Assembly: GCA_022432975.1 (NCBI GenBank)
Contig: CM039508.1
Coordinates: 47,581,646-47,645,645, forward strand
Source of the DNA: Begonia masoniana
Lineage: Eukaryota > Streptophyta > Magnoliopsida > Cucurbitales > Begoniaceae
DNA: 64,000 nt
Direction of reading: 5' to 3'
The notes beneath the pieces were generated by a model. That model saw only the letters and a list, made by a program, of their open reading frames with translations. It did not search any database and was not told where the DNA came from. Position numbers and translations under genes: made by a program. This document shows, piece by piece, positions 2,284 to 46,390 of the stretch (the first letter of the stretch is position 1; every line of letters begins with the position of its first letter).

Positions 2284-3731
2284 TTCCTCCTAAACCTTTT
2301 TACCAATATTACCCCTAGTCACCCACTACCTTGGGCAACTTACCCTTCTCGATAATTATTTCAGGGCGGGTTTCACAACTACCTCAAACTATATCCTCAA
2401 AATTCTTCAAAATCTCACTGAGTCCAACGGTTATTTTCTTAAGGCTCTCATTCCTTTGTGAATAAGGTCCTATAAGTATCACTTTTCCTTCTAAGTCACA
2501 ATAGCGAGCCCTCTCGCTATGCTCTTAGCTAAAACTCTCTTACCTCCTATGTTATGCTCATTCTTCTAACTTAAATCTCTATTAGCTCCGAGTAGCGTCA
2601 AGTCCATAAGTTCTACCATCGGTGTGCTCTAAACTATTCCTTCTAACCTTAAGTCACTTGGGTATCCATTGGTCCCGACTGGTCAAACACGAGTCGAACC
2701 TCTGAAAATCATCATTTTTCTTAAGTTTACTTAAATGGTTTCTATGAAAATCATCATTCTCTTTATTCTAACTTCAAATCTCAATCTCTCATAGAATCCT
2801 ACAATCTCCTTCACCTATCCCTAATATTGCACGAGGATTGCCTTAACGTTACTGAATGACCTTACCCTCTTTCGTTCCTCCTAGTCGGTTCTGAATATTC
2901 TACTTTGTTCCCTTGCAACGATTTATCCCACGATCTTCTTGTTAGCAAACTTGTTGTAGGTAAGTTTACGCCTTTATTCCAATTCTCCTTAAGTCCTCAA
3001 ATCCTACCATTTTTATTCTCCAATAATTTGAAACGTTCCTCAAACACTAATGCTTCTACCTTCATCCTGGAGGTAGCCTCATGTTTGTGGCTCCTAACTT
3101 AAATTGTACCAACTATAGATTCACAACTTAACTCCTATATCTTTTGCTTCATAATCTAATCAAGCAACACTAATTGTCTGACGTGTCCCCAACTCGTCGA
3201 TTATTCTTAACTTCTCCAAGTCTCCCCCTTACAGTGTGTCGATCAAAGTCTTTTCACGAGCTAACAATTGTCCTTTATTTTTCAGTCTGCTTTAATTCCT
3301 GAATATCATTTTCATCTAGATACTTCCAGTTTCATGTAGGTCTAGGATCTACAAGGCTCTACTATATTTTCTTATTTGCTTACGTGCACTTATTATACCT
3401 TGGCAATCCAAAGCATTCCTCGATACGTTCATATCTAAGTTTCAAACTTATCTCTGATTCGTCGTACTATAAAACTCCAAGGATTTGTCAACTAGGTTCA
3501 GTTTCTATCTCCTTAAATTTTAGATCTCATAAATTGCACCCCTCTAATAGTAACCCGAATTCTAAATGCACAATTCTTGTGGTTAAGTCAGGCTAGTCCT
3601 ATTAACGCATAATTCCCTTTCTATGAGGTCCACATTGTTCTATATTTAGCCTATTGTCCTCTCTTACTAGTTTGCCTAGTAACCCTTCTTACCCACCTTC
3701 TATTATATTTTTACCTCTCTATTTCCAACCT
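2284..3731. other. non-coding internal region of the gypsy element
   Basis: About 1.4 kb of C/T-rich, stop-laden DNA lies between the gag knuckle and the hexamer array. By position it should hold gag capsid and leader sequence of the minus-strand element, but no gag motif is recognisable in any frame. The short open frames at 2905-3102 and 3384-3596 have no family resemblance and look like chance. Confidence 0.5.
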
Positions 3732-5231
3732 AAATCGAAATCGAAATCGAAATCGAAATCGAAATCGAAATCGAAATCGAAATCGAAATCGAAATCGAAA
3801 TCGAAATCGAAATCGAAATCGAAATCGAAATCGAAATCGAAATCGAAATCGAAATCGAAATCGAAATCGAAATCGAAATCGAAATCGAAATCGAAATCGA
3901 AATCGAAATCGAAATCGAAATCGAAATCGAAATCGAAATCGAAATCGAAATCGAAATCGAAATCGAAATCGAAATCGAAATCGAAATCGAAATCGAAATC
4001 GAAATCGAAATCGAAATCGAAATCGAAATCGAAATCGAAATCGAAATCGAAATCGAAATCGAAATCGAAATCGAAATCGAAATCGAAATCGAAATCGAAA
4101 TCGAAATCGAAATCGAAATCGAAATCGAAATCGAAATCGAAATCGAAATCGAAATCGAAATCGAAATCGAAATCGAAATCGAAATCGAAATCGAAATCGA
4201 AATCGAAATCGAAATCGAAATCGAAATCGAAATCGAAATCGAAATCGAAATCGAAATCGAAATCGAAATCGAAATCGAAATCGAAATCGAAATCGAAATC
4301 GAAATCGAAATCGAAATCGAAATCGAAATCGAAATCGAAATCGAAATCGAAATCGAAATCGAAATCGAAATCGAAATCGAAATCGAAATCGAAATCGAAA
4401 TCGAAATCGAAATCGAAATCGAAATCGAAATCGAAATCGAAATCGAAATCGAAATCGAAATCGAAATCGAAATCGAAATCGAAATCGAAATCGAAATCGA
4501 AATCGAAATCGAAATCGAAATCGAAATCGAAATCGAAATCGAAATCGAAATCGAAATCGAAATCGAAATCGAAATCGAAATCGAAATCGAAATCGAAATC
4601 GAAATCGAAATCGAAATCGAAATCGAAATCGAAATCGAAATCGAAATCGAAATCGAAATCGAAATCGAAATCGAAATCGAAATCGAAATCGAAATCGAAA
4701 TCGAAATCGAAATCGAAATCGAAATCGAAATCGAAATCGAAATCGAAATCGAAATCGAAATCGAAATCGAAATCGAAATCGAAATCGAAATCGAAATCGA
4801 AATCGAAATCGAAATCGAAATCGAAATCGAAATCGAAATCGAAATCGAAATCGAAATCGAAATCGAAATCGAAATCGAAATCGAAATCGAAATCGAAATC
4901 GAAATCGAAATCGAAATCGAAATCGAAATCGAAATCGAAATCGAAATCGAAATCGAAATCGAAATCGAAATCGAAATCGAAATCGAAATCGAAATCGAAA
5001 TCGAAATCGAAATCGAAATCGAAATCGAAATCGAAATCGAAATCGAAATCGAAATCGAAATCGAAATCGAAATCGAAATCGAAATCGAAATCGAAATCGA
5101 AATCGAAATCGAAATCGAAATCGAAATCGAAATCGAAATCGAAATCGAAATCGAAATCGAAATCGAAATCGAAATCGAAATCGAAATCGAAATCGAAATC
5201 GAAATCGAAATCGAAATCGAAATCGAAATCG
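3732..5231. repeat. perfect hexanucleotide array, (AAATCG)250
   Basis: The unit AAATCG repeats head to tail for exactly 1,500 bp with no visible substitution or indel. Each 60-base stretch holds ten identical units. One frame of the array encodes alternating Lys-Ser and creates a spurious 541-codon open frame, which should not be read as a gene. The array lies in the internal region of the gypsy element, between the primer binding site and the gag remnant. A three-copy tract of the same unit sits at 5607-5624, inside the LTR. The array is far longer than ordinary plant microsatellites and its homogeneity implies recent expansion or an assembly effect. Confidence 0.98.
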
Positions 5232-5500
5232 TTTCCTACTTCCTTAAATAATCAAATTTATATTCACCCAAATACCTAGTTATCCTTACTTGAACTTTTC
5301 GACTAACCTATAAGCCATAGTGTGACAACAATTAACTCCTCGAACAATGATGCTTTCTTAACTATTCTAACACCATCAATTATAACAAAGCAAATAGAAA
5401 AATCAAGCATAACTAAAGAATATACTTACAGTTGATGAATGATGTCCGCGTAGTGGCTGTGCAGTCGAGCAGTCTACAGAACCGATTTTAAAACCCGGGG

Positions 5501-5512
5501 GCTCTGATACCA
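5501..5512 (-). promoter_or_regulatory. primer binding site of the left gypsy element (Met-tRNA type)
   Basis: On the minus strand this reads TGGTATCAGAGC, the standard plant LTR-retrotransposon site complementary to the 3' end of initiator Met-tRNA. It lies four bases inside the LTR edge at 5517. It fixes both the minus orientation of the element and the LTR boundary. Confidence 0.85.
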
Positions 5513-6482
5513 TAATTGTGACAACCCTAACACTGTACCCGATTTTCCCACATTATATATTTTGTTTTTATCTTTATATCCTAATATGAACTCTAGGCGG
5601 AATTCTAAATCGAAATCGAAATCGTTAATGTTACGAAAAAAAATTTGGAAACCATATTTTTAACACCACTTAGATAAACTTTAAAACAATTAAGATGAAA
5701 CAATTAAAATAGTTAAAACTCCTTCCTCTTTCTTTTCCTTTCCTGCATACACACTTAAATATGCCCAATTTCTTCCACAATCACCACTAACATCACACTT
5801 GACAATACAACTTAACATCAAGCACCCAATACTCATACGTCTTCCGAAATACCACCCCTAAACTGACTCGAAACACAACTATAACAAAGTACATTTTCAC
5901 GAACATAAACTGCGTGGTTCCGTTTGAAAGTTTAACATATCCTCCTGTTTTAAAATTACAAAACAGTTCCAAAACGTTTAAAACATTAATATATAACCTA
6001 TCAACTATCCAGAGCCAAGCATCCTAAAATGTTCTAACAGTGCAATTATCCATTTTAATTCACCATCAACCAGAAAATTCCCAAATAAACCTCAAAACAT
6101 CAAATCATGAATCCCACAGGTCAAAATGCGCCTCGACTGCGCCAGCATACCACCGCAAGCCATCCTCCGTCAACTGCATCACTCCTCAGGTGGAGGGACC
6201 TCGTCCTCGCCTATGTCGAAGTTACCTATACCATACAGACACACTATGAGCTAAAGGCTCAGTAAATTCTACGTAAATGCAGATGCGTGCAGTGTATATG
6301 GAGTTCAGAAATCATGCATAACATACAGAGCGTCGCAGACAGTATATCACTGAGATCTCATCCCCCTAACCGAAGGGGGCCCATCCAGCGGTTGGACTAC
6401 CCCGTGCGGTTAGAGGAGGGGGGTACACGCTTACAACACGTACAGCCGTGCCTGAGCCCCACCTCGCGTGACCAGATAACAG

Positions 6483-8190
<1,708 letters not shown>

Positions 8191-11935: not shown

Positions 11936-12332
11936 TGTAACGACCCCTTTTTCTAGTAAGATATTGTCCGCTCTCGGGATTGGGCCGCAGCCCAATATCC
12001 TCCCCTCACGGCTTTGTTTTGGCGAGGACTTCTCAGTCGGTCACCCAACCTGGTACTACTCTCACCGAAACACTTTTAACTTCGGAGTTCTTATGGGATC
12101 CGTTGTCAATTGTCCTCCAAAACACGTCTTACTATGTTTCATTTCCATATACCTTCCCAAGTGATGTGGGATTGTGACGACCCCCCTTTCTACGACTGAA
12201 CACTCCGGCTCAAGTCCAACTTGGGATCGGTGGAGTTTTAACCCAGCACGTCACCCTCAGGCCTAAGTCCCACTCGGGATTCGCAGAGCACTGGGTGGTT
12301 CCTCCTCATACGTGTCCATTCGGGTCATCACA
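11936..12332 (-). repeat. Cassandra left LTR (3' LTR of the element), 397 bp, retains 5S homology
   Basis: The plus strand starts TGTAACGACC and ends GGGTCATCACA. The adjoining CACCCCCCCTAGGGGG is a polypurine tract on the minus strand and marks the inner edge. It contains the block CCAGTAAGATATTGTC also present in the right LTR, and the 5S-like stretch that the right LTR lacks. Confidence 0.85.
12021..12102 (-). ncRNA. 5S rRNA-derived segment inside the Cassandra LTR
   Basis: Read on the minus strand it follows plant 5S rRNA from GGATCCCAT through AGAACTCCG, GAGAGTAGTACC and TTGGGTGACC to GAAGTCCTCG. The box C region (TTGGGTGACC) is close to the 5S consensus. The box A equivalent (AGTTAAAAGTG) is altered, and the 5' third of 5S is missing or diverged. 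This is a retrotransposon-borne derivative, not a functional ribosomal 5S gene. Whether RNA polymerase III still reads it is unknown. Confidence 0.85.
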
Positions 12333-12388
12333 ATCACCCCCCCTAGGGGGCCCAACGTCTTTGTTTGCCACATTTCCGGTTGGGTATA

Positions 12389-12402
12389 GGCTCTGATACC
12401 AT
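12389..12402 (-). promoter_or_regulatory. Cassandra primer binding site
   Basis: On the minus strand this reads ATGGTATCAGAGCC, complementary to initiator Met-tRNA, one base from the right LTR at 12404. It shows that the element lies on the minus strand and that the right LTR is the 5' LTR. Confidence 0.85.
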
Positions 12403-12403
12403 T

Positions 12404-12652
12404 TGTGACGATTCCTTTTTCCAGTAAGATATTGTCTGCTCTGGGGATTGGGCCGCAGCCCAATATTCTCCCCTTAAGATATTGTCTGCTCTGGGGATTG
12501 CACGACCACCCTTTCTACGACGTCACCCTCCGGCCCAAGTCCAACCCGGGATCTACGTAGTTTTAACCCAGCACGTCACCCTCCGGCCCAAGTCCCACTC
12601 GGGATTCGCGGAGGGTGGTTCCTCCTCATACGTGTCCATTCGGGTCATCACT
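12404..12652 (-). repeat. Cassandra right LTR (5' LTR), 249 bp, 5S segment deleted
   Basis: It starts TGTGACGATTCC and shares both ends and several inner blocks with the left LTR (TTCTACGAC, CCCAGCACGTCACCCTC, TCATACGTGTCCATTCGGGT). It lacks about 150 bp, including the whole 5S-like stretch. Near the breakpoint the block AAGATATTGTCTGCTCTGGG is present twice, suggesting that the loss came with a local duplication. Confidence 0.85.
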
Positions 12653-17994: not shown

Positions 17995-19643
17995 TCAAAG
18001 TGTTGTCTTGATCGGACGATTATAACGAACCGGAATCAGTTTCAATCCGTTCAGCCTTTTGCTCGTTGCTCCATTAAAGACAGACATATCAAGCTCTTCT
18101 GGTTTTCCTCCGTCTGGAACTAACCAGTTGAAATGGTAGAGCAAATTCGCCAGAATTATCTCCGAATTCGCTAACCCTAGTGCCATTCCTGGGCAAATTC
18201 TTCTTCCAGCTCCGAACGGAATTAGCTCAAAGCTTGCTCCTTTAAAGTCTACGTCTCTTTGCATAAATCTTTCTGGGTTAAAACTTTCTGGGTCTGTCCA
18301 TATTTTTGGGTCTCTTGCGATCGCCCAGGCGTTGACGATCACTTTTGTTTTGGCCGGAATGTGGTAGCCGTTGATTTCGCCATTGCTTCTGCTTTCTCTC
18401 GGGAGTAGTAATGGAATTGGAGGGTGTAGTCTCAGCGTTTCTTTAATGATCAACTGGAAATATTTTAGTTGTTGGAGACCTGATCCGTCTATTTCTCCTT
18501 TCGAATCGAAAACTTGCCTGATTTCTGCTTGAGCTTTCTTCATCATATTTGGGTGTTTTACGAGCTCTGAGATCGCCCACTCGATCAGCGTGGCTGATGT
18601 TTCTGTTCCTGCAACGAAAACATCCTAAAAATGGAAAATATAAACTATGTTAATTAATTCCTAATTCTGCAAAAGAAATTGAACTACTATACAATTATTA
18701 GTGGTTGAATCTCGATTTTTAATGGAAAAAGTAAGTGAATACGTACCAAGATAATTGCTTTGATGTTCTCGTTTGCCATGCGAAACGGAAGGCCGTCTTT
18801 CTCCTGAAATTTTACAAGAACATTGACAAGATCCTCTGGTTCTTGAACATCTCCATCGGATTTCCCCTTGTCTGACTCTGATCTATGTGCATTTATGATG
18901 TTTTCCAGGATTCGATCGCATACTTTATGAACTTTTTCTGCTTTGTTATTAGATCCACCAACAAAATGAAGAAATTTAAGGGAAGGAAAAACATCGGCCA
19001 ACTCAAAACCAGTCATCAAAAGCACAATCTTTTCCGACACAGCAAGAAACTCTTCCTGGTCGTTACACTTTCCTCCTAACGCAGCGTTGGAAGTGATGGT
19101 ATTAAGAGTGGAAAATATCATTTTACTCAAACTCACCACCGACCCGTTATTAGATTCGAGCTCTGCCACCATTTTTGCTGTTTCTCGGTTCATGATTGGC
19201 CGAAATGACTGAACCCTTTTTGCGCTAAAAAGTTCAAGCGTACATAGTTTTCTAATCTCTCTCCAGTAATCTCCATAGGGAGCAAAGGCGATGTCTTTTA
19301 GTCCATACGTGAAGTAAGAGCCTAAGAGAGTAGCAGGTCGGTTAGCAAAATTAAGGTCGTGGGTTTTCATGACCTCTCTTGCGATTTCGGCGGAGGAAAC
19401 GACGACGGTGGAGATTTCTCCGAGTTGCAGATGCATCACCGGACCGTATCTATCGGCCAATTGTTTCAATCGGGTGTGGGGGAGGTCGCCGATCAAGCGG
19501 TGCATATCGCCAACGATGGGAAATTTCCATGGGCCGGGTGGCAGTTTTAGAGATGAGTTGTTTCGTTTGGTTATCCTCACCGCCATGAGCAGAAGAAGCA
19601 AGAAGGAGCAGATCATTGGGAAGGAGATATATGACTCGTCCAT
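17995..19643 (-). CDS. CYP71-type cytochrome P450, two exons, apparently intact
   Basis: Exon 1 is 19643-18747 and exon 2 is 18624-17995, separated by a 122-bp phase-0 GT-AG intron. The product is 508 residues, the usual size. It has an N-terminal membrane anchor (about residues 5-25, rich in Leu), the hinge PPGPWKFPIVG, the C-helix WREIRK, the I-helix AGTETS (split from exon 1 by the intron), the K-helix ETLR, FNPERF, and the heme loop PFGAGRRICPG with its cysteine ligand. It would be an ER-bound monooxygenase using NADPH-P450 reductase. The closest resemblance is to CYP71D/CYP71BE enzymes, many of which oxidise terpenoids; the substrate cannot be inferred. Met at 19643 is chosen because the anchor follows it and a TATA box lies 49 bp upstream. 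An in-frame upstream Met near 19666 is less likely. Confidence 0.92.
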
Positions 19644-24645: not shown

Positions 24646-26802
24646 TGTTGGAATGAGGAAGAGAGATTTTTTTATAGAAAGGAAAAATATAAGTAGGGAT
24701 GAGAGAACTTGAGAGAAACTATTTGTATTGAAATGATTTTGGTTATTGGCTTCTCTTACAAAAGTCTAAACTCACATCTTATTTATAGGACTATTTTGTA
24801 CATGTATAAAACAATACATGAACCATCTATTTAATGTTCTAACACTTAATGAGACATCTAAGTACATGAACTAATGTACTTATACATACATGAATCACAG
24901 CTCCCTAGATGCTCTTTCACAAATACATTGACTTCAACCAAAACCATATTAAAAACATACATTAACTAAAACATCTTATTTGAATTAAGTTATATTTTCA
25001 ACATCCTCCCTTAAGTTTAATTCCTTATAACTTCGAGCATTATCCTTAGCTTGCTGAAACTTCATAGGACAACGCCACCTAGCGTGCCTACTAAGAGTCC
25101 TTTAACACTTAGCTGTTTTTGGCATGCCTTAGGAGAAAGCCCAGCTCCTCCTTCCTCGATTGTGGCAATCCGAGCTTATGCCTCTGTTCGCAGTGCTTTA
25201 CCTACGCGGTGCACTCCTCCTTGTTGCGCCCACATTGTATCTGTCTGGGTCGCAATACTTTGCCCAAGCTATTGCGATGCTCTGCTTGTATCCTAGGTTC
25301 GTCATGCTAGCCATCCTACCCTCGGCTATGTTCACTCTTTTGAAGATAACTTATGGACTGCGCCACCCACGCAGCCCAGCGCGCCCCACCAAGTGTACAT
25401 CACACTTAGCTGATTTTTGCGTGCCTTAGGAGAAGCCCAGCTTCTCCTTCATTGGGGCTTTGGCCCGCGCCTTCATGCTCCATGAGTAATGGGGTGTGAC
25501 AAACCACCCTCGCCAAATGAAATTGACGACCTTGTCAATACCCAAGCTAGGTAGTCTCTGACTTGCTTCTCGAATTATCAAAGATTGACCTCTTGCTCCC
25601 ACGTGGTTTTGTCTTCATGTTCCCATTGCACAAGAAATTTCTGCCGTTTTTTATTTTTTATTGTTCTGTGGTTGAGTATTTTTACCAGCTTCTTGGTGAA
25701 TTCCACTCGCATCCCAAGTTGTGCTCTTTGCACATAACTCTGATCTCCTTCAAAATATGGTTTAAGAAAACTTACATGAAAAATAGGATGGAGCTTGAGC
25801 CGTTCGGGAAGTTGCAATCGATAGGCAACCGATCCAACTCTCTTGATGACAACGAATGGTCCATCATATCTTGGAAGGAATCCTTTGGGGAATCCCGGGT
25901 CCTCATCCTTACTCCAAAGTAGTGGATTGAGCTCAAGGAGAACCTTATCTCCTCGCTTGAATTCTTTAATCCACTTGGGTTTCGTGCCTCTAATGTGATG
26001 TGGTGTTCTTGCCTTTGGAACTACTTCTAGTTCCCGCCCTACTACATGAGCCATCCCTTGCCCTTGAGGTTTCCACGATCTCATCACCTTCCTAGGTACT
26101 TTGCATCCTCGGTCACTTTTGACCCTACTCGATGAGGTTGTAACGATTTCCTTTAGCACCTTGCTGACACCGGCAAGCACCTTGCCTATTCCCATAACAG
26201 TGCCCGCAACGCATTGTTCGATGGTGAGGCCATCCGTCCCCAATGATGCTTGAAGTTTATCCAACTTCCTCCTGGTCAACCGGAGTTTCGTAACAAATAG
26301 GTTGTCCCTGGTCATTGCCGTTGATACACCCATGAAACTCTCAAGCCTCGAGAGTCTTGCAAGGAACATGTCCATCTAATCTTGCACAATTGTCGCCATG
26401 AGTGGGTGATGTCCATCGGTTGTTCCAAATAGCCGTAGCTCTGATACCAGTTTGTTGGAATGAGGAAGAGGAATTTTTTAGAGAAAGGAAAAATATAAGT
26501 AAAGATGAGAGAACTTGAGAAAAATTATTTGTATTGAAATAATTTTGGTCATTGGCTTTTCTTACAAAAGTCTAAACTCACATCCTATTTATAGGACTAT
26601 TTGGTACATGTATAAAGCAATACATGAACCACCTATTTAATGTTTTAACACTTAATGAGACATCTAAGTATATGAACTAATGTACTTATACATACATGAA
26701 TCACAATTCCATAGATGATCTTTCACAAATACATTGACTTCAACCAAGACCATATTAAAAACATACATTAACTAAAATATATTATTTGAATTAAGCTATA
26801 TT
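24646..26802 (-). mobile_element. small non-autonomous gypsy element inside P450 copy 2
   Basis: The left LTR (24646-25005, TGTTGGAATGAGG...TTCAACA) and right LTR (26453-26802) are near-identical copies. The right one lacks the last few bases and joins foreign copia DNA. A polypurine tract (minus strand AACTTAAGGGAGGA) abuts the left LTR and a Met-tRNA primer site (26438-26449) abuts the right, giving minus orientation. The interior is only 1.45 kb and retains the start of gag and the C-terminal tail of integrase with a chromodomain. Protease, RT, RNase H and the integrase core are gone, so it must depend on a helper. Confidence 0.85.
25578..26375 (-). CDS. 265-residue fusion: gag N-terminus joined to integrase tail and chromodomain
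   Basis: The first about 90 residues ([38 protein letters not shown]) look like a gypsy gag N-terminus. After a basic stretch the frame continues with [28 protein letters not shown] and [13 protein letters not shown], which are integrase C-terminal motifs. It ends with [16 protein letters not shown], a chromodomain signature of chromoviral integrases. The frame is open without stops despite the loss of several kilobases between the two parts. Whether it is translated is unknown; a chromodomain tether to chromatin is possible. Confidence 0.7.
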
Positions 26803-29317: not shown

Positions 29318-29891
29318 TCAAGGTGTTGTCTTGATCGGACAATTATAACGAACCGGAATCAGTTTCAATCCGTTCATCCTTTTGCACGCTACTCTATTAA
29401 AAACAGCCATGTCAAGCTCTTCTGGTTTTTCTCCATCTGGAACTAACCAGTTGAAATGGTAGAGCAAGTTCTCCAGAATTATCTCCGAAGTCGCTAGTCC
29501 TAGCGCCATTCCTGGACAAATTCTTCTTCCAGCTCCGAACGGAATTAGTTCAAAGCTTGCTCCTTTAAAGTCTACGTCTCTTTCTAGAGATCTTTCTGGG
29601 TCAAAACTTTCTAGTTCTGTCCATATTTCTGGGTCTTTGAGATCGCCCATGCGTTGACAATCACTTTTTTTTTCGCCGGAATGTGGTAGCCGTTGATTTC
29701 GCCATGTTCCTTCTTTCTCTTGGGAGTAGTAATGGGAATGGAGGGTGTAGTCTCAGCGTTTCTTTTATGATTAGGTTGAAGTATTTTAGCTCTTGGAGAC
29801 CTGTTTCGTCTATTTGTTTTTTTAAATCGAAAACTTGGCTGATTTCTGCTTGAGCTTTCTTCATTATTTTTGGATGTTATACGAGCTCTAA

Positions 29892-30180
29892 TGTCATGGA
29901 AGAGGCCTAGTGATGAATTATACAGTTGGGCTTCCAAGAAAGAGGCGCAGAGCCCAGGCCCAAGAGTGCAAGCTGTTGATTGACGTGGCCATTCTGTTAG
30001 GAAGGGAAGCAGATAAATGCAGACGAGAGAGGGGTGAGAAGGGTGTGAATTGAATTGTCTGTTTTCTTATTCGTTTTCTCTTTATCGTTTTCCAGTAGTT
30101 TATCTCTTTCCTTTCATTCTGTAAACGCTTGTGAGAATTACAGAGGAGTATTTTCTATCAAAACCAGCATTCTCACAACA
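29892..30180 (+). repeat. left LTR of the gene-capturing element
   Basis: 289 bp, TGTCATGGAAGAGG to TTCTCACAACA. It is directly followed by GTGGTATCAGAGC, the Met-tRNA primer binding site (30182 on). Confidence 0.95.
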
Positions 30181-30208
30181 GTGGTATCAGAGCAGCTATG
30201 ATCAGAGA

Positions 30209-33082
30209 ATGACGGAGACCAGAGCAGCCACGATGGGAGGGATGGCTGAAACGAGAACAAAATCAATTGAAGAAATGATGGCAGAGTCGACAGCACAGCT
30301 GGATGCGATTTTATCCATAGTTACAAAATTGGCTCAGTCTCAGTTGATCACTGCCGCAGATATGGCGCCGACTCTCCAGCAATCGACCGAATCTGGACAG
30401 GAGAAATATGTGGGGACCTATTTTTGGAGACAACAGCAAGCAGGGGAAGATTCATCTCTACCTCCTTCCAGCGCACCAGTCGAAGCAGCTGAATCGGGGC
30501 CGAGGGTAGCCGTAATCGGAGAGCACGGACAGAAGCAGCCTGTACACAGTGCCCCATCCCTGCCATTTTACACAAAACCTCAGCCCTCTCTTTTTCCTCC
30601 GTTTGAGTCTCCCGTTCCTTTTCAATCTTCGCCACTGCAGCAGTCTTATTATTCACCTCATGATCAGCATCAGACATCTCACAATTATGCCCCATCGACC
30701 TCTTCTCTTTTCGCCAACTTTGCCTCTGATCTGACTTTGAGTTCCAATTCTCAGTACTCGTCCGAGCAATATGCTCCTTTTGGATCCTCCGTTTCGCATG
30801 TATACAAGGACCCCTATGAGAATGCTGTGAAATTTAATCAGGGTAGTGGATTTGTTGATGATAAATATGGAAGTTACAATCAAAGCAAATCTGGTTTTGG
30901 TTTGGATCTGTACGGGAGGAGGATGGACAATGGTGTGACCCGTTATGAATCTAGTTATGATGATGGCTATGGGGACGGCGTGTTTGCTTACCAAGGGGGT
31001 ACGGTTGAGCCATATGGAGCTCGTGGTATCTCCCCCAACTCTTCGACGTGGACTGGATTTGATGAGTATGGGAGGCCAATCAGTTTTCCTGCTAGAAAAG
31101 AGCCTTCCAGTGGTTCAAGCAAGATTGTGCGAGCCACTCCAAAAGCAGATACTCAGGAAGACTTCAAGGGCGAGATTAAAAAAATTAGTTTAGCTGGAGA
31201 TAATTCGAGTAGTGACTTGGATACGTCAGAATTTGAGGAGGATGCAGCAAGCGGAGAATCGGAGTATGAGGTAGACATGGATAAAGATGAACTAGACGAT
31301 GTGGTTTATGAGGGAGATGTTCCGGTAGAAACCGTGCCCGAAACCGAAAAAGAAACTGACTTGCTTGCAGTTTTTAAGATGGATTGGAGGTACATTAAGC
31401 CTGAACACTTGTACATGATGTTGAGTTCGTTTCTTCCAAAAGGTGGACAAATTTTGTGAATATCAATTTATCCATCTGAGTTTGGACTACAGCGTATGAA
31501 AGAGGAAACAGTTCATGGTCAGGTTGGTGGTGGTGAGATCGATGATGAGATATTGCGTTCTTATGAGTTGAGTAGACTAAGGTACTACTATGCTGTGGTA
31601 GAATGTGATTCTGTTGTCACGGCTGACTATCTCTATAAAACTTGTGACGGAGTTGAGTTTGAAAGATCATCTAATGTTCTTGATTTGAGATTTATTCCTG
31701 ACTCAGTGGAACTCAAGCACCCACCAAGGGACATTGCTACTCTGGTACCAGGAAACTATGAAGCTATCGATTTCCATACTTCTGCCCTGCAAAAGAGTAA
31801 GGTTGATTCTAGTCTGGGGGAGGATCTACCAGATGAGTATAAATGGGCTGATTACAGCATTTTGACTCGGCTACCAAGGTTGGGTTTGATTCTGATCAAG
31901 GCAGCTTTAGGATCCTCCTGGAAGGAAATTCTTTGTGGAGAACAAATTCTGGAAGGAAAAATGGACCCCGGGAGTCCAGCAGTTCTTATCGTAAGTTCAT
32001 TTGACGTTTTAGTTTTTAAGATCCTGAACTATAAATCGACAAGAAAAAAAAAATTGTATTATAAGCCGCCTCAATTGTGTATTTTCCTGGAGGGAAGTGA
32101 ACTTCTCAACACTTTATAGAGAGGTATTTCAATTGCATCTAGGGAAGAAGAAGGTAAGGGTGAGGAATGCAGTAGTAGTCCAGTGGGAGAGAATTCTGGT
32201 TTGCCCCATATATGTTTTGCTGGATTGAGTGAAGACAAGGCTACTTTGAGAGGTGAACATATTACTTCTGGAGTAGTTATAGAGAATTTGAATGCTGAAG
32301 TTGTCAAAGCAGTCATGTTGGTTGACTCTGCTCAAATATGTGAGGATACTATACACCATGGGAAAGATAATGTGTGTGGTCTAGATGTTTCGGCTGGTGA
32401 AAGAGATGCTGCAAAGTGTGAATTGCATGATGTTTCAGAGAGAAGCATAGAGTTGAGAAAGAAATTAAATGGGTTGGAGAATACAGAGAGAATGGCGATG
32501 GAAGAAATTGAGAAATTAAGACTTCACTGCAAAAGTGTTGAGGCCAAAGATGAAGAGCATCTAGCTACAATTGATGAAAGGAGGAGAGAATTGGATCTGG
32601 TTAAGAGGAAATTGGCAGAGTCAGAGGAGATGATAGCAAATTTAGAGAGTAAAACTCATGAAATTTTACAAGAGAAAGAAGAGAAAGAACTTGAAAAAGG
32701 TGGGCTGGAGTGGATGATTGAAGAGTTGAAACGAAACCTAAAGCAATTGAACTCGACTGAGATGAGTCTAACTGGAGCAAAGAAATTAGTGGCCGCAAAG
32801 ATTTTGGAGTTGGAGAAGAATTTACACGAGGCATGGCAGAATAACCCTGCCATGGTTATAGAGATTAAGAAGTTGGCTGGGGAGCTGAAGGAGGAGAAAA
32901 AGGCCATTCAGATGTTGATAAATAAACACGATTCACTTGCACCAGATTTGAACTTGACTAGAGAGCAATCAAAGGGTGCGGCATATAAGATCGAGAACCT
33001 GATTCGAGAAAAGGAGATGGAGGAGGAAAAAGTGAAGGAAGAGAGTACGATTCTGGACTTGCAAAGAGAATTAGGCGACTGA
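30209..33082 (+). pseudogene. chimeric frame: gag start + FREE1-like + ESF1-like + CMSS1-like + coiled coil
   Basis: One frame runs 958 codons with two internal stops (TGA 31457, TAG 32117). First comes a gag-like start (MAETRTKSIEEMMAES). The second part is Ser/Tyr/Pro-rich and ends with VEPYGARGISPNSSTW, FDEYGRPISFP and SKIVRATPKADTQEDF, resembling plant FREE1/FYVE1, an ESCRT protein. The third part has MDWRYIKPEHLYMMLSSFLP, SRLRYYYAVVECDS, YLYKTCDGVEFERSSNVLDL and DFHTSALQKSK, characteristic of the pre-rRNA processing protein ESF1. The fourth part, GSSWKEILCGEQILEGKMDP, resembles CMSS1 and ends at a GTAAGT donor-like site (31990), so some intron DNA was kept. The last 300 residues are a Glu/Lys-rich coiled coil of unknown origin. 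Confidence is high for ESF1 and moderate for the others. Confidence 0.75.
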
Positions 33083-33321
33083 ACGTAGATCTAGTTAGAT
33101 TGGATGATAAATGCAGGGTTGAGGAAGAAAAGAGCAAGCAATTAATTACCAAGGTCAACCACCGTAGCTCTGTTTTAGGCAGAATGACACTCGGAAAAGA
33201 ACACGCAACGAAAGGTCTCGATGCTGAGAGGATGGAAGCAGAAAAGTTAAGATTGGAACTTTCTTGCAATTTTTCTTGCATTTTTATCCTTGAGGACAAG
33301 GATATTTTAAGGGGGAGGATT

Positions 33322-33610
33322 TGTCATGGAAGAGGCCTAGTGATGAATTATACAGTTGGGCTTCCAAGAAAGAGGCACAGAGCCCAGACCCAAGAGTGCA
33401 AGCTGTTGATTGACGTGGCCATTCTGTTAGGAAGGGAAGCAGATAAATGCAGACGAGAGAGGGGTGAGAAGGGTGTGAATTGAATTGTCTGTTTTCTTAT
33501 TCGTTTTCTCTTTATCGTTTTCCAGTAGTTTATCTCTTTCCTTTCCTTCTGTAAACGGTTGTGAGAATTACAGAGGAGTATTTACTATCAAAACCAGCAT
33601 TCTCACAACA
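33322..33610 (+). repeat. right LTR of the gene-capturing element
   Basis: 289 bp, the same length as the left LTR, with five substitutions by hand comparison. The polypurine tract immediately precedes it and the TCTAA target duplication follows it. Confidence 0.95.
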
Positions 33611-33826
33611 TCTAAGATCGTCCATTCGATCAGCGTGGCTGATGTTTCTAATCCTGCAGCGAAAACATCCTGAAAATGGAAAATATAAACTAAGTTAATT
33701 AATTCCTGGTTCAGCCAAAGAAATTGACGACTAGACAAATTATTAATGGTTAAATCTCGATTTTTAATGGAAAAAGTAAGTGAATACGTACAAAGATAAT
33801 TGCTTTTACGTTTTTGTTTGCCATGG

Positions 33827-35314
33827 TGATAAGTGTGTATTTTGCACACTTATTCGTGCTTTTCATTCTTGTTTCGATTAGTTGTTGGTGAGATTGTGCA
33901 GATAAATTGAGTTTTAACAGGTAATGGCGGAATTGGTTTGAAATTAGGAAATAAAGAAGAAAAGGAAGCAAAGAAGAAAAAGAATCGGATCACGATCGAT
34001 CGTGATCGTACTGCGATCGATCGTGATTCAAGAGAAATTCATTCCAGAATCCAGAGCCTGCCCGATCGATCGGGCTCAGCACCTCGATCGATCGTGATCG
34101 AGAGAAGTTTCGTTCAAAAGTTCCCGAGCCTGCCAGATCAATCGGGCTTAGTATTGCGATCGATCGTGATCGAGAGAAGTTTTCTCCAAAAATCCAGAGG
34201 CCGATCGATCGGGCTTTGCATCTCGATCGATCGTGATTAGCAAAGATTTTGTGCTTAAGTGTCGCGCGATCACGATCGATCGTGATCACATTACGATCGA
34301 TCGTGATTGCAAGAAATTATTAAAATCCTATTCTTCAATTTATTGATCGGGTCGATCTCGGCCGTTGATTGATGGACCGCGGCCCTAAGTCGAAAAAAAA
34401 AAAAGATAAAAGTCTATGGAGGAGGCAAGTAAAAGAGACAACGAGATAGAGAGAAAAATCCTACGGAGACATCGGAGGCCGGATCAAAGCAATTGGCGAG
34501 GAACGAGCGAATTCGACGGAAACTTCATAGTGTTTTCTTTCTTCTCTTCTTTTCTGATATCATGAACTATTTTATTTTCTCTGTAATTTTCTTTAACTTT
34601 ATCATGAACTAAATTTTCTATTCTAGGGTTTCGACGTAACTTTGTTATGAATATTTATTTTTCTTAATTCAAGTTTTTAGTTTTCTGTTCCTTTTTTGTG
34701 TTGAGTAATCTATTCTGAACTTAATGCTTAGGTTTGCTTGATCACCAAAACTAAGAATTTTAGGGTTAATTCGGGATGCGAGAGCGGAGAATTTAACCGT
34801 GCATTGAATATTTTACCTTAAAAAGGACCCTAGACTAGAGATAGTTAGGGCGTTTGAGTGGTAATTTAATTTCTTGCTCGTAATGTATTTAATTGATTGT
34901 AGGGTTAGAGACCGAGAGGTAATAACACATCAATTGAGTAAGTTTATTAATACTTGAGAGAGTTTAATAAACAGCATAGAGAAATAACCATCAACACGAA
35001 GGAATATGAATTAATTATTTGAATTAGGATTACTAAATAGGATTAGCTAAGTGAAATCGGAACCCTGGAATTATTCTCATCATATAATCTTAACTTTTTA
35101 CATTCGAATCTGTTATTTAAATTGTTTGATTTATTTTATTTGAATTATTTTAGTTTAAAATCCAAAATCATCAACATACTGTTTCTTTTCAAATTAACCT
35201 GAAATTTAGATAATCAATACTTAACATATTTATTCCTCGTGGGATCGACACTCATGCTTGCACACACTTTACTACTTTTGCGACACGTGCACTTGCGTGT
35301 AGTTTTTCGCAACA
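33827..35314 (+). repeat. left LTR of the Athila element
   Basis: Starts TGATAAGTGTGTATTTTGC and ends TTTTTCGCAACA. Between 33987 and 34308 it carries about ten short palindromes with the core CGATCGATCG, most inside the longer palindrome ATCACGATCGATCGTGAT, some as CCCGATCGATCGGG. The LTR is non-coding; open frames here are chance products of the palindromic repeats. Confidence 0.95.
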
Positions 35315-35338: not shown

Positions 35339-35436
35339 ACTAATTTTTGTTATTATTGAATTATTTGAATTTAGTTTATATTTGAGTTTTCTTTCGCTAC
35401 TGGAATTAAATCGCATTATTTGCACATTACAGGTGT

Positions 35437-36991
35437 ATGCGAAAACTAGGTACTGCCAACCTAATCCCTATCGACCTTGAAATTGAACGAACCTGCCGTA
35501 GAAATCGAAGGGAAACAAAGCAAGCAAATATGGCAGATAATCAAAATGCGGATGTACAACAAATTATCGAAACTGAGGGAGTCGGGCGACGAACATTGCT
35601 CGATTATGTTATGCCATCCATGGACAGGGTTCAATCAGCAATTCGAAAGCCTGCCATCACGTGCAACAATTTTGAAATTAAGCCGGGAACGATACAAATG
35701 ATTCAACAGTATCAATTTTGTGGTCTGCCTAACGAGGACCCTAAAGATCATATTGCTAGCTTCGTCGAGGTCTGTGATACTTTTAAATACCATAATGTCT
35801 CTGATGATGCTATCAAGCTCAGGTTATTCCCCTTCACACTAAGAGATCGCGCGAAGAACTGGTTGAATTCCTTACTCTTGGATTCAATTACCACGTGGAA
35901 TGAATTAGTGCAGAAATTTCTATCCAAATTCTTTCCCTTTGAAAAGATGGCAAAACTCCACAATGAGATCACTAATTTTACTCAATTTGATGGTGAGACA
36001 ATTTATGAAGTATGGGGCCGATTCAAGGAGCTTTTGAGAAGATGCCCCCAACATGGTCTACCACAATGGATGCAAATACAGACATTCTTCATAGGCCTAT
36101 CAATTTCTACACGGACTCTTGTTAACTCAGCGGCTGGTGGATCACTACTACAAAAGATGGAAGTGGAAGCGTTCAATCTGTTAGAGGAGTTATCCCTCAA
36201 TAATGATCAATGCCCGGTTGAACGTCAGATTTTGAGGAGACAGCCAAATACCCCAAAAATGGATGCGATAAAAGCATTGACTACACAAATTGCATCCCTC
36301 ACTCAGCACATCCAAGGTAACCAAGCTCCAGTTAATGCAATTCACTCCCCGATCATACAATGTCAGTGGTGTCAAGGACCATATTCTAGTGATAACTGTC
36401 TGCAAATTAACCAAATGGCTAGGATTTCATTTGAACAAGCTCAATATGTGGGCAATTATACTAGACTGATATACCAGAATTCAGGGAATAATTTATTGGG
36501 GGCACAACAATCACCCGAATTTTTCATGGAAAAATCAGAATAACGCCGTGCCAATTCCTCAAGTGCCTCAACAAGGACCACCAGTGCACGATAGGAAAGT
36601 TAATCTTGAAGAGTTAATTGCCAAAATGGGCGAGCGCACTAGTAGTATCATTGCCGAAATGGGGGAGCATACTAATAATTTTATGGCTGAAACGCGCACT
36701 ACTCTGCAGAACCAATCAGCACAAATCAGAAGTTTAGAAACTCAAATGGGTCAGTTAGCCAATGCAATCAGTGGTCGACCTCAAGGTGCATTATCGAGTT
36801 CTACAGAAATAAACCCCAAGGATCACTGTAACGCAATCACTCTTAGAAGTGGAGCGGTGATTGACAATTCGGGAAAAGTTGATGAAAATATGAAGAAAAA
36901 GGCTGAGAATGACTCGTCCAAAGATGTACCGAGTGACAGTGAACAGCAAAAGGCACAGAAAATTACACCTGCCCTAAGCAAGACGAAATGA
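35437..36991 (+). pseudogene. Athila gag (two frameshifts)
   Basis: The capsid region matches Athila-type gag: ITCNNFEIKPGTIQMIQQYQ, FCGLPNEDPKDHIASFVEVC, FPFTLRDRAKNWLNSL and WNELVQKFLSKFFP. The zinc knuckle reads CQWCQGPYSSDNC, with Tyr where family members usually have His. Near 36480 the frame shifts; NFSWKNQNNAVP is readable only in the new frame, which continues to 36991 with a coiled-coil-like stretch (QNQSAQIRSLETQMGQLANA). A second shift near 36988 leads into pol. Roughly 515 residues in total. Confidence 0.85.
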
Positions 36992-44870: not shown

Positions 44871-46390
44871 TGATAAGTGTGTATTTTGCACACTTATTCG
44901 TGCTTTTCATTCTTGTTTCGATTAGTTTTTCCTTAAGTGTTTGAGTTTATTTGATGTTGTTGGTGAGATTGTGCAGATAAATTGAGTTTTAACAGGTAAT
45001 GGCGGAATTGGTTTGAAATTAGGAAATAAAGAAGAAAAGGAAGCAAAGAAGAAAAAGAATCGGATCACGATCGATCGTGATCGTACTGCGATCGATCGTG
45101 ATTCACAAGAAATTCATTCCAGAATCCAGAGCCTGCCCGATCGATCGGGCTCAGCACCTCGATCGATCGTGATAGAGAGAAGTTTCGTTCAAAAGTTTCC
45201 GAGCCTGCCCGATCAATCGGGCTTAGTACTGCGATCGATCGTGATCGAGAGAAGTTTTCTCCAAAAATCCAGAGGCTGCTCGATCGATCGGGCTTTGCAT
45301 CTCGATCGATCGTGATTAGCAAAGATTTCGTGCTTAAGTGTCGCGCGATCACGATCGATCGTGATCACATTACGATCGATCGTGATTGCGGGAAATTATT
45401 AAAATCCTATTCTTCAATTTATTGATCGGGTCGATCTCGGCCATTGATTGATGGACCGCGGCCCTAAGTCGAAAAAAAAAAGATAAAGTCTGTGGAGGAG
45501 GCAAGTAAAAGAGACAACGAGATAGAGAGAAAAACCCTACGGAGACATCGGAGGCCGGATCAAAGCAATTGGCGAGGAACGAGCGAATTCGACGGAAACT
45601 TCATAGTGTTTTCTTTCTTCTCTTCTTTTCTGATATCATGAACTATTTTATTTTCTCTGTAGTTTTCTTTAACTTTATCATGAACTAAATTTTCTATTCT
45701 AGGGTTTCGACGTAACTTTGTTATGAATATTTATTTTTCTTAATTCAAGTTTTTAGTTTTCTGTTCCTTTTCTGTGTTGAGTAATCTATTCTGAACTTAA
45801 TGCTTAGGTTTGCTTGATCACCAAAACTAAGAATTTTAGGGTTAATTCGGGATGCGAGAGAGGAGAATTTAACCGTGCATTGAATATTTTACCTTAAAAA
45901 GGACCCTAGACTAGAGATAGTTAGGGCGTTTGAGTGGTAATTCAATTTCTTGCTCGTAATGTATTTAATTGATTGTAGGGTTAGAGACCGAGAGGTAATA
46001 ACACATCAATTGAGTAAGTTTATTAATACTCGAGAGAGTTTAATAAACAACATAGAGAAATAACCATCAACACGAAGGAATAGGAATTAATTACTTGAAT
46101 TAGGATTACTAAATAAGATTAGCTAAGTGAAATCGGAACCCTGGAATTATTCTCATCATATAATCTTAACTTTTTACATTCGAATCTGTTATTTAAATTG
46201 TTTGATTTATTTTATTTGAATTATTTTATTTTAAAATCCAAAATCATCAACATACTGTTTCTCTTCAAATTAAGCTGAAAATTAGATAATCAATACTTAA
46301 CATATTTATTCCTCGTGGGATCGACACTCGTGCTTGCACACACGTTACTACTTTTGCAACACGTGCACTTGCGTGTAGTTTTTCACAACA
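44871..46390 (+). repeat. right LTR of the Athila element
   Basis: 1,520 bp, collinear with the left LTR apart from an extra 32 bp near 44926-44960 and small indels. It carries the same palindrome cluster (about 45063-45390). Confidence 0.95.

Follow-up and report, generated by a model that had tools for sequence, protein, structure and literature searches.

Does an LTR retrotransposon that holds pieces of several unrelated host genes in one reading frame represent a single accident, or does it belong to a family that collects such pieces, and do its open frames mean anything? We studied this question for an element in a stretch of 64,000 nucleotides of Begonia masoniana (the window, C7:47581646-47645645), and the genome searched comprised 795 Mb in 308 contigs. 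Positions refer to the window unless preceded by q, which denotes the element position (window position minus 29891). We consider it highly probable (about 88%) that the element belongs to a non-autonomous LTR retrotransposon family which has been active recently and collects host gene pieces, with template switching as the likely route of capture.

The coordinates of the element and its parts are given in the table. A sequence-only reading had described LTRs, a primer site, a polypurine tract and a TCTAA duplication, and the analysis bore out all four: the direct terminal repeats have TG...CA ends, and both the primer binding site and the purine tract of an LTR retrotransposon are in place. 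The primer binding site reads TGGTATCAGAGC, with the tRNA identity assumed. The LTRs are alike in 284 of 289 bases (5 differences, K2P 0.0175), which agrees with the divergence of about 1.7% estimated before. At a rate of 7e-9 per site per year the insertion would be 1.25 My old and at 1.3e-8 about 0.67 My old, both with a wide error as they rest on five differences. The rate of 1.3e-8 is the one used in the available text of PMC5664825. Pfam scans of four plus-strand ORFs with their pieces and of seven further element ORFs (six of them on the minus strand) returned no pol domain, as the sequence-only reading had it; the protease, reverse transcriptase, RNase H and integrase of an autonomous element were thus absent from the scanned ORFs. 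Gag and pol models gave no match that would assign the window element to the Ty3/Gypsy or the Ty1/Copia lineage.

Table: Coordinates of the element, its insertion site and the pieces in its interior
Feature	Position	Strand	Remarks
Cytochrome P450 copy, 5' side of the insertion	29318..29886	-	with frame breaks; Pfam p450, translations
Target site duplication TCTAA	29887..29891 and 33611..33615	+	both element ends
5' LTR	29892..30180	+	
Primer binding site	30182..30193	+	
Family leader	30209..30576	+	open frame ("gag start"); common to sister copies; no gag match
FREE1 piece	30578..31172	+	from donor exon 1 (C1:81432149-81432743); N-terminal, disordered
ESF1 piece	31157..31798	+	covers the acidic stretch and the RRM; built of five joined C9 exons; 36 nt deleted in frame; overlap with the FREE1 match at the start
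TGA stop	31457..31459	+	within ESF1 piece
Middle module	31804..32406	+	common to many family copies; holds the segment earlier read as CMSS1
TAG stop	32117..32119	+	sister copies L015, L019 and L022 open across the region
Coiled-coil host gene piece	32392..33268	+	donors at C13, 93-94%; frameshift near 33070
Interior 3' end with purine tract	33282..33321	+	kept in sister copies
3' LTR	33322..33610	+	

The element was inserted in a cytochrome P450 copy. When it is removed, the joined flanks align across the joint over 610 bases with a P450 paralogue at 18169-18780 (88.7%), which represents the empty site; the paralogue and both pieces adjoining the 5' end were identified as P450 by Pfam. The interrupted copy may have been a pseudogene before the insertion because it contains further frame breaks. 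Related tandem arrays with a unit of about 72 nt containing CGATCGATCG lie beside P450 copies at 34014-34237 and 45068-45317. A short LTR element at 24665-26770, again within P450-like sequence, has 300-nt repeats that are 93% alike, and its ORF 25578-26375 on the minus strand matched only C-terminal parts of integrase and, weakly, a chromodomain in Pfam; we report it as a putative deletion derivative. Elsewhere in the window there is a perfect array of 250 copies of AAATCG (3732-5231). The direct repeats at 11936-12613 (about 353 nt with a 5S rRNA match of 51 bits at 12014-12124 on the minus strand, about 210 nt without it) are accompanied by a primer binding site on the minus strand at 12390, and we take them to be a Cassandra-type TRIM. 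Rfam snoR71 (RF00097, 62 bits) was matched at 35953-36059 on the minus strand, within the gag ORF 35410-36543 (PF03732), so either a snoRNA was captured or the Rfam family was seeded from retrotransposon DNA.

Three of the interior pieces could be traced to host genes. For the FREE1 segment we found 47 database proteins at E 0.001 or better (best 8e-57), of which 46 are FREE1-type (41 with a FYVE domain) and one is ESF1-type. The likely donor is a 353-codon ORF at C1, which matches q687-1281 without gaps at 94.6% and whose exon departs from the consensus of FREE1 after VLCQ; at C4 there is another FREE1 gene, with only 79%. The likeness to FREE1 proposed before is therefore real. The synonymous divergence from the donor ranges from 0.039 to 0.095 over seven copies and is 0.074 for the window copy, about four times its own LTR divergence of 0.0175, which indicates from the sequence comparison that FREE1 was captured before this insertion and carried into it. 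Of 62 columns that FREE1 proteins conserve, the window piece retains 49, the lowest share of all 47 sequences (next 46/52), and in a tree of 41 sequences (six relatives were dropped for low coverage) it has the longest terminal branch, with 0.45 barely above the next at 0.44. Both the low retention and the long branch are consistent with a capture older than the insertion. As the FREE1 piece is a single exon, it is uninformative on splicing.

The ESF1 piece is informative in this respect. The claimed likeness was confirmed by a match to Pfam PF25121 (4e-36) and by an intron-bearing donor gene at C9:6592397-6595625, which is about 93% alike. Five exon blocks of this gene align one after another along the element, and GT-AG ends fit each of the four intervening gaps in exactly one placement. 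Because four GT-AG donor introns are absent, the ESF1 piece of the window copy comes from spliced RNA. The coiled coil noted before is also a host gene piece. Its donor is a stop-free ORF of 642 codons at C13 (93.6%), whose reading frame agrees with that of the element; a second C13 locus reaches 93.3% and two C14 loci 76%. The donor ORF is uninterrupted and cannot show splicing, so that ESF1 is the only piece that does. A structure model from the single sequence predicted the coil to be helical (pLDDT 66.9). Pfam gave no match to the 642-codon ORF, which may resemble peroxisomal and mitochondrial division factors; no protein relatives of the coil were found among candidates limited by length and word sharing, and it was the search of the genome that yielded the donor. 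SMC/Rad50 models of NCBIfam matched the coil far below their cut-offs, and these matches were rejected. Likely donor loci for all three genes were located in the same genome, with the mapped exon junctions of ESF1 joined in the element, and the claim of at least three host genes in one frame holds for FREE1, ESF1 and the coiled-coil gene.

The two remaining segments fared differently. No gag model matched the leader or the window ORFs, so the proposed gag start found no confirmation, and a Pfam Phage_Gp19 match to 30209-30538 (24 bits, cut-off 22) was taken as chance. The proposed likeness to CMSS1 received no support from profile and protein searches of the window segment (47 candidates, none at E 0.001). 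A genome search with PF14617 at E 0.001 gave no match either, and it also missed the host CMSS1 gene itself, which marks low sensitivity and does not amount to disproof. For 31991-32119 we had considered a kept intron (GTAAGT at 31991, AT-rich). We withdrew this reading because chance alone would give about one GTAAGT per 3.1 kb, because an AT content of 62-63% recurs nearby, because the stretch belongs to the shared middle module, and because L015, L019 and L022 have open frames there.

The leader (30181-30560) has at least 71 matches in the genome, with 40 of 156 candidate places scored. Besides the window copy we examined 13 loci (L015, L016 with its continuation L017, L018-L022 and L023-L028) and four more, all picked by DNA match and not by frame. 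LTR pairs were present in six of the 13 (L018, L019, L020, L021, L022 and L028), each at least 98% alike, and four sister copies showed 287/287, 287/287, 275/276 and 258/258 identical positions; for the other seven (L015, L016 and L023-L027) there was no pair within the fetched stretch. Two of the four later loci have pairs, at 93% and 77%. FREE1 was found in seven copies including the window copy, ESF1 in six and the coil in two (window and L015). Based on Pfam matches above the cut-off, inside LTR pairs unless stated otherwise, we detected the following further cargo: FKBP_C and BRO1 in L020, HSP70 and PPR in L021, Arm in L019, Arm and Vps39_1 (23.3 bits, cut-off 22) in L022, Arm, DnaJ and HSP70 in L028, AAA in L040 (LTR pair 93% alike), and NEMP with UCH in one frame between element matches in L041. 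H_PPase in L018 stayed below its cut-off. The share of scanned pieces with a match was 2/3 in L019, 3/3 in L020, 1/3 in L021, 2/3 in L022 and 3/4 in L028, and 5/10 pieces exceeded the cut-off in a further batch including L040 and L041. In several copies stretches of 71 residues to 933 nt are left over beyond the matched pieces; the end of L021 may be eIF5B-like and one stretch of L020 glycine-rich. The search for other copies thus yielded a family, but its members do not have the same content: each copy carries pieces of two to four genes in shifting mixtures. These different subsets support the claimed serial capture in several steps. L015, which has the cargo of the window copy (at 1211-1804 and 4380-7303 of that locus), has a FREE1 piece split by some 2.5 kb; similarity to the window copy is only 75% in the 5' part and 96% in the rest, and we read this pattern as either a nested insertion or the result of recombination among family members. 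In L028 a long simple repeat (3290-4327) lies between HSP70-like pieces and is open in several frames on both strands.

Capture from RNA followed by reshuffling is well supported by these data. The reverse transcriptase would switch from element RNA to a co-packaged host message and back, and later switches between family members would reshuffle the cargo; as the ends, primer site and purine tract are retained, enzymes supplied in trans could replicate and integrate the hybrid. No partner element with pol came to light. The available text of PMC13317346 and PMC1950507 describes template switching between RNAs that are packaged together. The joins of the window copy would fit such switches at short similarities, which is no proof: the donor match of FREE1 shares q1266-1281 with that of ESF1, the middle-module and coil matches overlap at q2501-2515 (the L022 match fades earlier, in one ungapped register), and the leader ends at q684-685 with FREE1 beginning at q687.

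The frame 30209-33082 was said to be open but for two stops, and this is correct, with stops at 31457 and 32117 and an end at 33080; the coil piece continues frame-shifted to about 33268, past that end. The open runs of 444 and 320 codons in the window copy are longer than any run in 1000 simulated interiors (Markov-1, maximum 292), and a run of 219 codons was reached in 6 of the 1000. In terms of the longest sense open run and its share of the interior we observed 425 codons (0.41) for the window copy, 327 (0.33) for L018, 1059 (1.00) for L019, 921 (0.89) for L020, 744 (0.74) for L021, 891 (1.00) for L022 and 745 (0.53) for L028. Hence a single open frame covers 74-100% of the interior in four of seven full-length copies, with up to 1059 codons. 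The Markov maxima for the full-length copies were 151-208 codons and the antisense maxima 125-395, the 395 lying in simple repeat. L015 is open for 923 codons through FREE1, ESF1, middle module, coil and 3' end. Open runs in the four further loci, where LTR pairs are older or none was detected, reach only 211-433 codons. Frames are broken in the window copy and L018, L020 shifts before FREE1, and L021 and L028 contain a frame change. Among joins with known frames, 9 of 10 are in frame (FREE1-ESF1, ESF1-coil, ESF1-Arm, ESF1-FKBP, FKBP-BRO1, FREE1-HSP70, HSP70-PPR, Vps39-Arm and DnaJ-Arm) and one, HSP70-DnaJ in L028, is out of frame. At one third each the chance is 3.6e-4 if the joins are independent, which they are not fully, as some are common to several copies and some run via the same middle module. 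Counting the putative PPR-eIF5B-like join in L021 as a further out-of-frame case gives P 0.0014 for 9/11. NEMP-UCH in L041 is one additional in-frame join.

To see whether the encoded proteins are under selection we polarised the changes in FREE1 and ESF1 against the donors, leaving out 39 sites where no copy agrees with the donor. There were 153 changes, 111 nonsynonymous, 39 synonymous and 3 stop, compared to 109.5, 36.6 and 6.9 that the mutation spectrum would predict. Amino-acid drift looks neutral: the ratio of nonsynonymous to synonymous changes is 2.85 against 2.99 expected without selection. The stop deficit is weak (P 0.083), and pairwise dN/dS between copies ranged from 0.37 to 6.96 on small counts. 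Distinct indels measure 36, 138 and 3 nt in frame and 1 and 4 nt frame-shifting (2/5). It is thus very unlikely that the hybrid proteins are selected for function, e.g. as a gag substitute that combines a coiled coil with a condensate-forming and an RRM-type region. The long frames and the predicted helical coil would fit such a role, and the captured part of FREE1 lies in its N-terminal disordered, condensate-driving region (available text of PMC11525194), but besides the neutral ratio the cargo differs between copies, 13 of the conserved FREE1 columns are lost, and the P[TS]AP motif sought in the element is absent. It is likewise very unlikely that the pieces came in as DNA, whether they were inserted or the element took up a patchwork made by a DNA transposon. 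Pack-type transposons often contain patchworks (available text of PMC13317346), and both the FREE1 and the coil piece run colinear with the genome; however, the Pfam-checked pieces in LTR-bounded copies are all in sense orientation, and the precise absence of four introns refutes DNA entry for ESF1 barring an intronless genomic copy, of which the protein search gave no sign, with one intron-bearing gene (C9) and six element pieces among the ten matches listed.

For the open frames themselves there are two readings. We are evenly divided on whether capture took place as described and the frames are meaningless, the coding pieces being naturally open, the joins lucky or co-inherited and the cargo decaying. 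Neutral drift of the amino acids, the non-significant stop deficit, the inheritance of several joins together and the broken window and L018 copies all agree with this, while the in-frame joins (P 4e-4 if independent, 0.0014 for 9/11), the openness of L019 and L022 over the whole interior and of L020 over 89%, and the selection of loci by DNA match speak against it. Open frames and in-frame joins in the absence of selection on the protein suggest that it is the RNA that is filtered, e.g. through escape from nonsense-mediated decay. Plant nonsense-mediated decay targets RNAs with long 3' untranslated regions, and RNAs with a frame open over most of their length may survive better, through decay escape or a need for translation in cis. 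We put forward only tentatively, and on balance lean against, the idea that the family is a continuing gene-fusion machine which joins spliced messages and whose copies persist only with a mostly open frame, without selection on the protein.

Returning to the family of non-autonomous elements that collects host gene pieces, multi-gene capture by plant LTR retrotransposons is usually illustrated by Bs1 of maize alone. Here a young family in a single genome offers many mixtures, located donors, intron evidence and datable insertions, and allows testing how retrotransposons assemble host messages and whether the reading frame filters the joins. If such a filter exists, these elements would supply host domains already fused in frame, from which new genes could arise directly. 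We found no described family of this kind in the open-licence literature, and no paper on ESF1, FREE1 and retrotransposon together.

Helitrons also form patchworks of host gene pieces within a family. So do Pack-type DNA transposons (available text of PMC13317346); unlike both, the Begonia elements have LTRs, primer site and purine tract and show RNA capture with intron loss. Plant LTR captures of single genes likewise place host gene fragments between LTRs. In the available text of PMC2774510, 425 maize LTR elements contain gene fragments from at least 189 captures, and under the criteria of that survey 0 of the 425 hold more than one standard nuclear gene; counts for rice and sorghum are given in PMC7264820, and for pepper PMC5664825 reports two or three genes inside single LTR elements, each as far as the available text goes. 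In contrast to single-gene captures, the Begonia copies carry two to four gene pieces each, in shifting mixtures. Bs1, an LTR element with segments of three host genes in a hybrid frame (PMC13317346), is the only plant multi-gene transduction named in the available text of PMC13317346, PMC3726574, PMC7264820, PMC5664825, PMC2774510, PMC11525194 and PMC1950507. The comparison with Bs1 drawn in the sequence-only reading is apt, as pieces of several genes and the loss of donor introns were both observed. Like Bs1, the Begonia elements hold pieces of at least two unrelated host genes between LTRs, in a hybrid frame. The Bs1 product is reported to be transcribed and translated, whereas the Begonia family is known here from its DNA. 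The genes and the element are different, and unlike Bs1 we are dealing with a family of differing mixtures, for which three likely donors were located and in which the ESF1 piece shows four lost introns.
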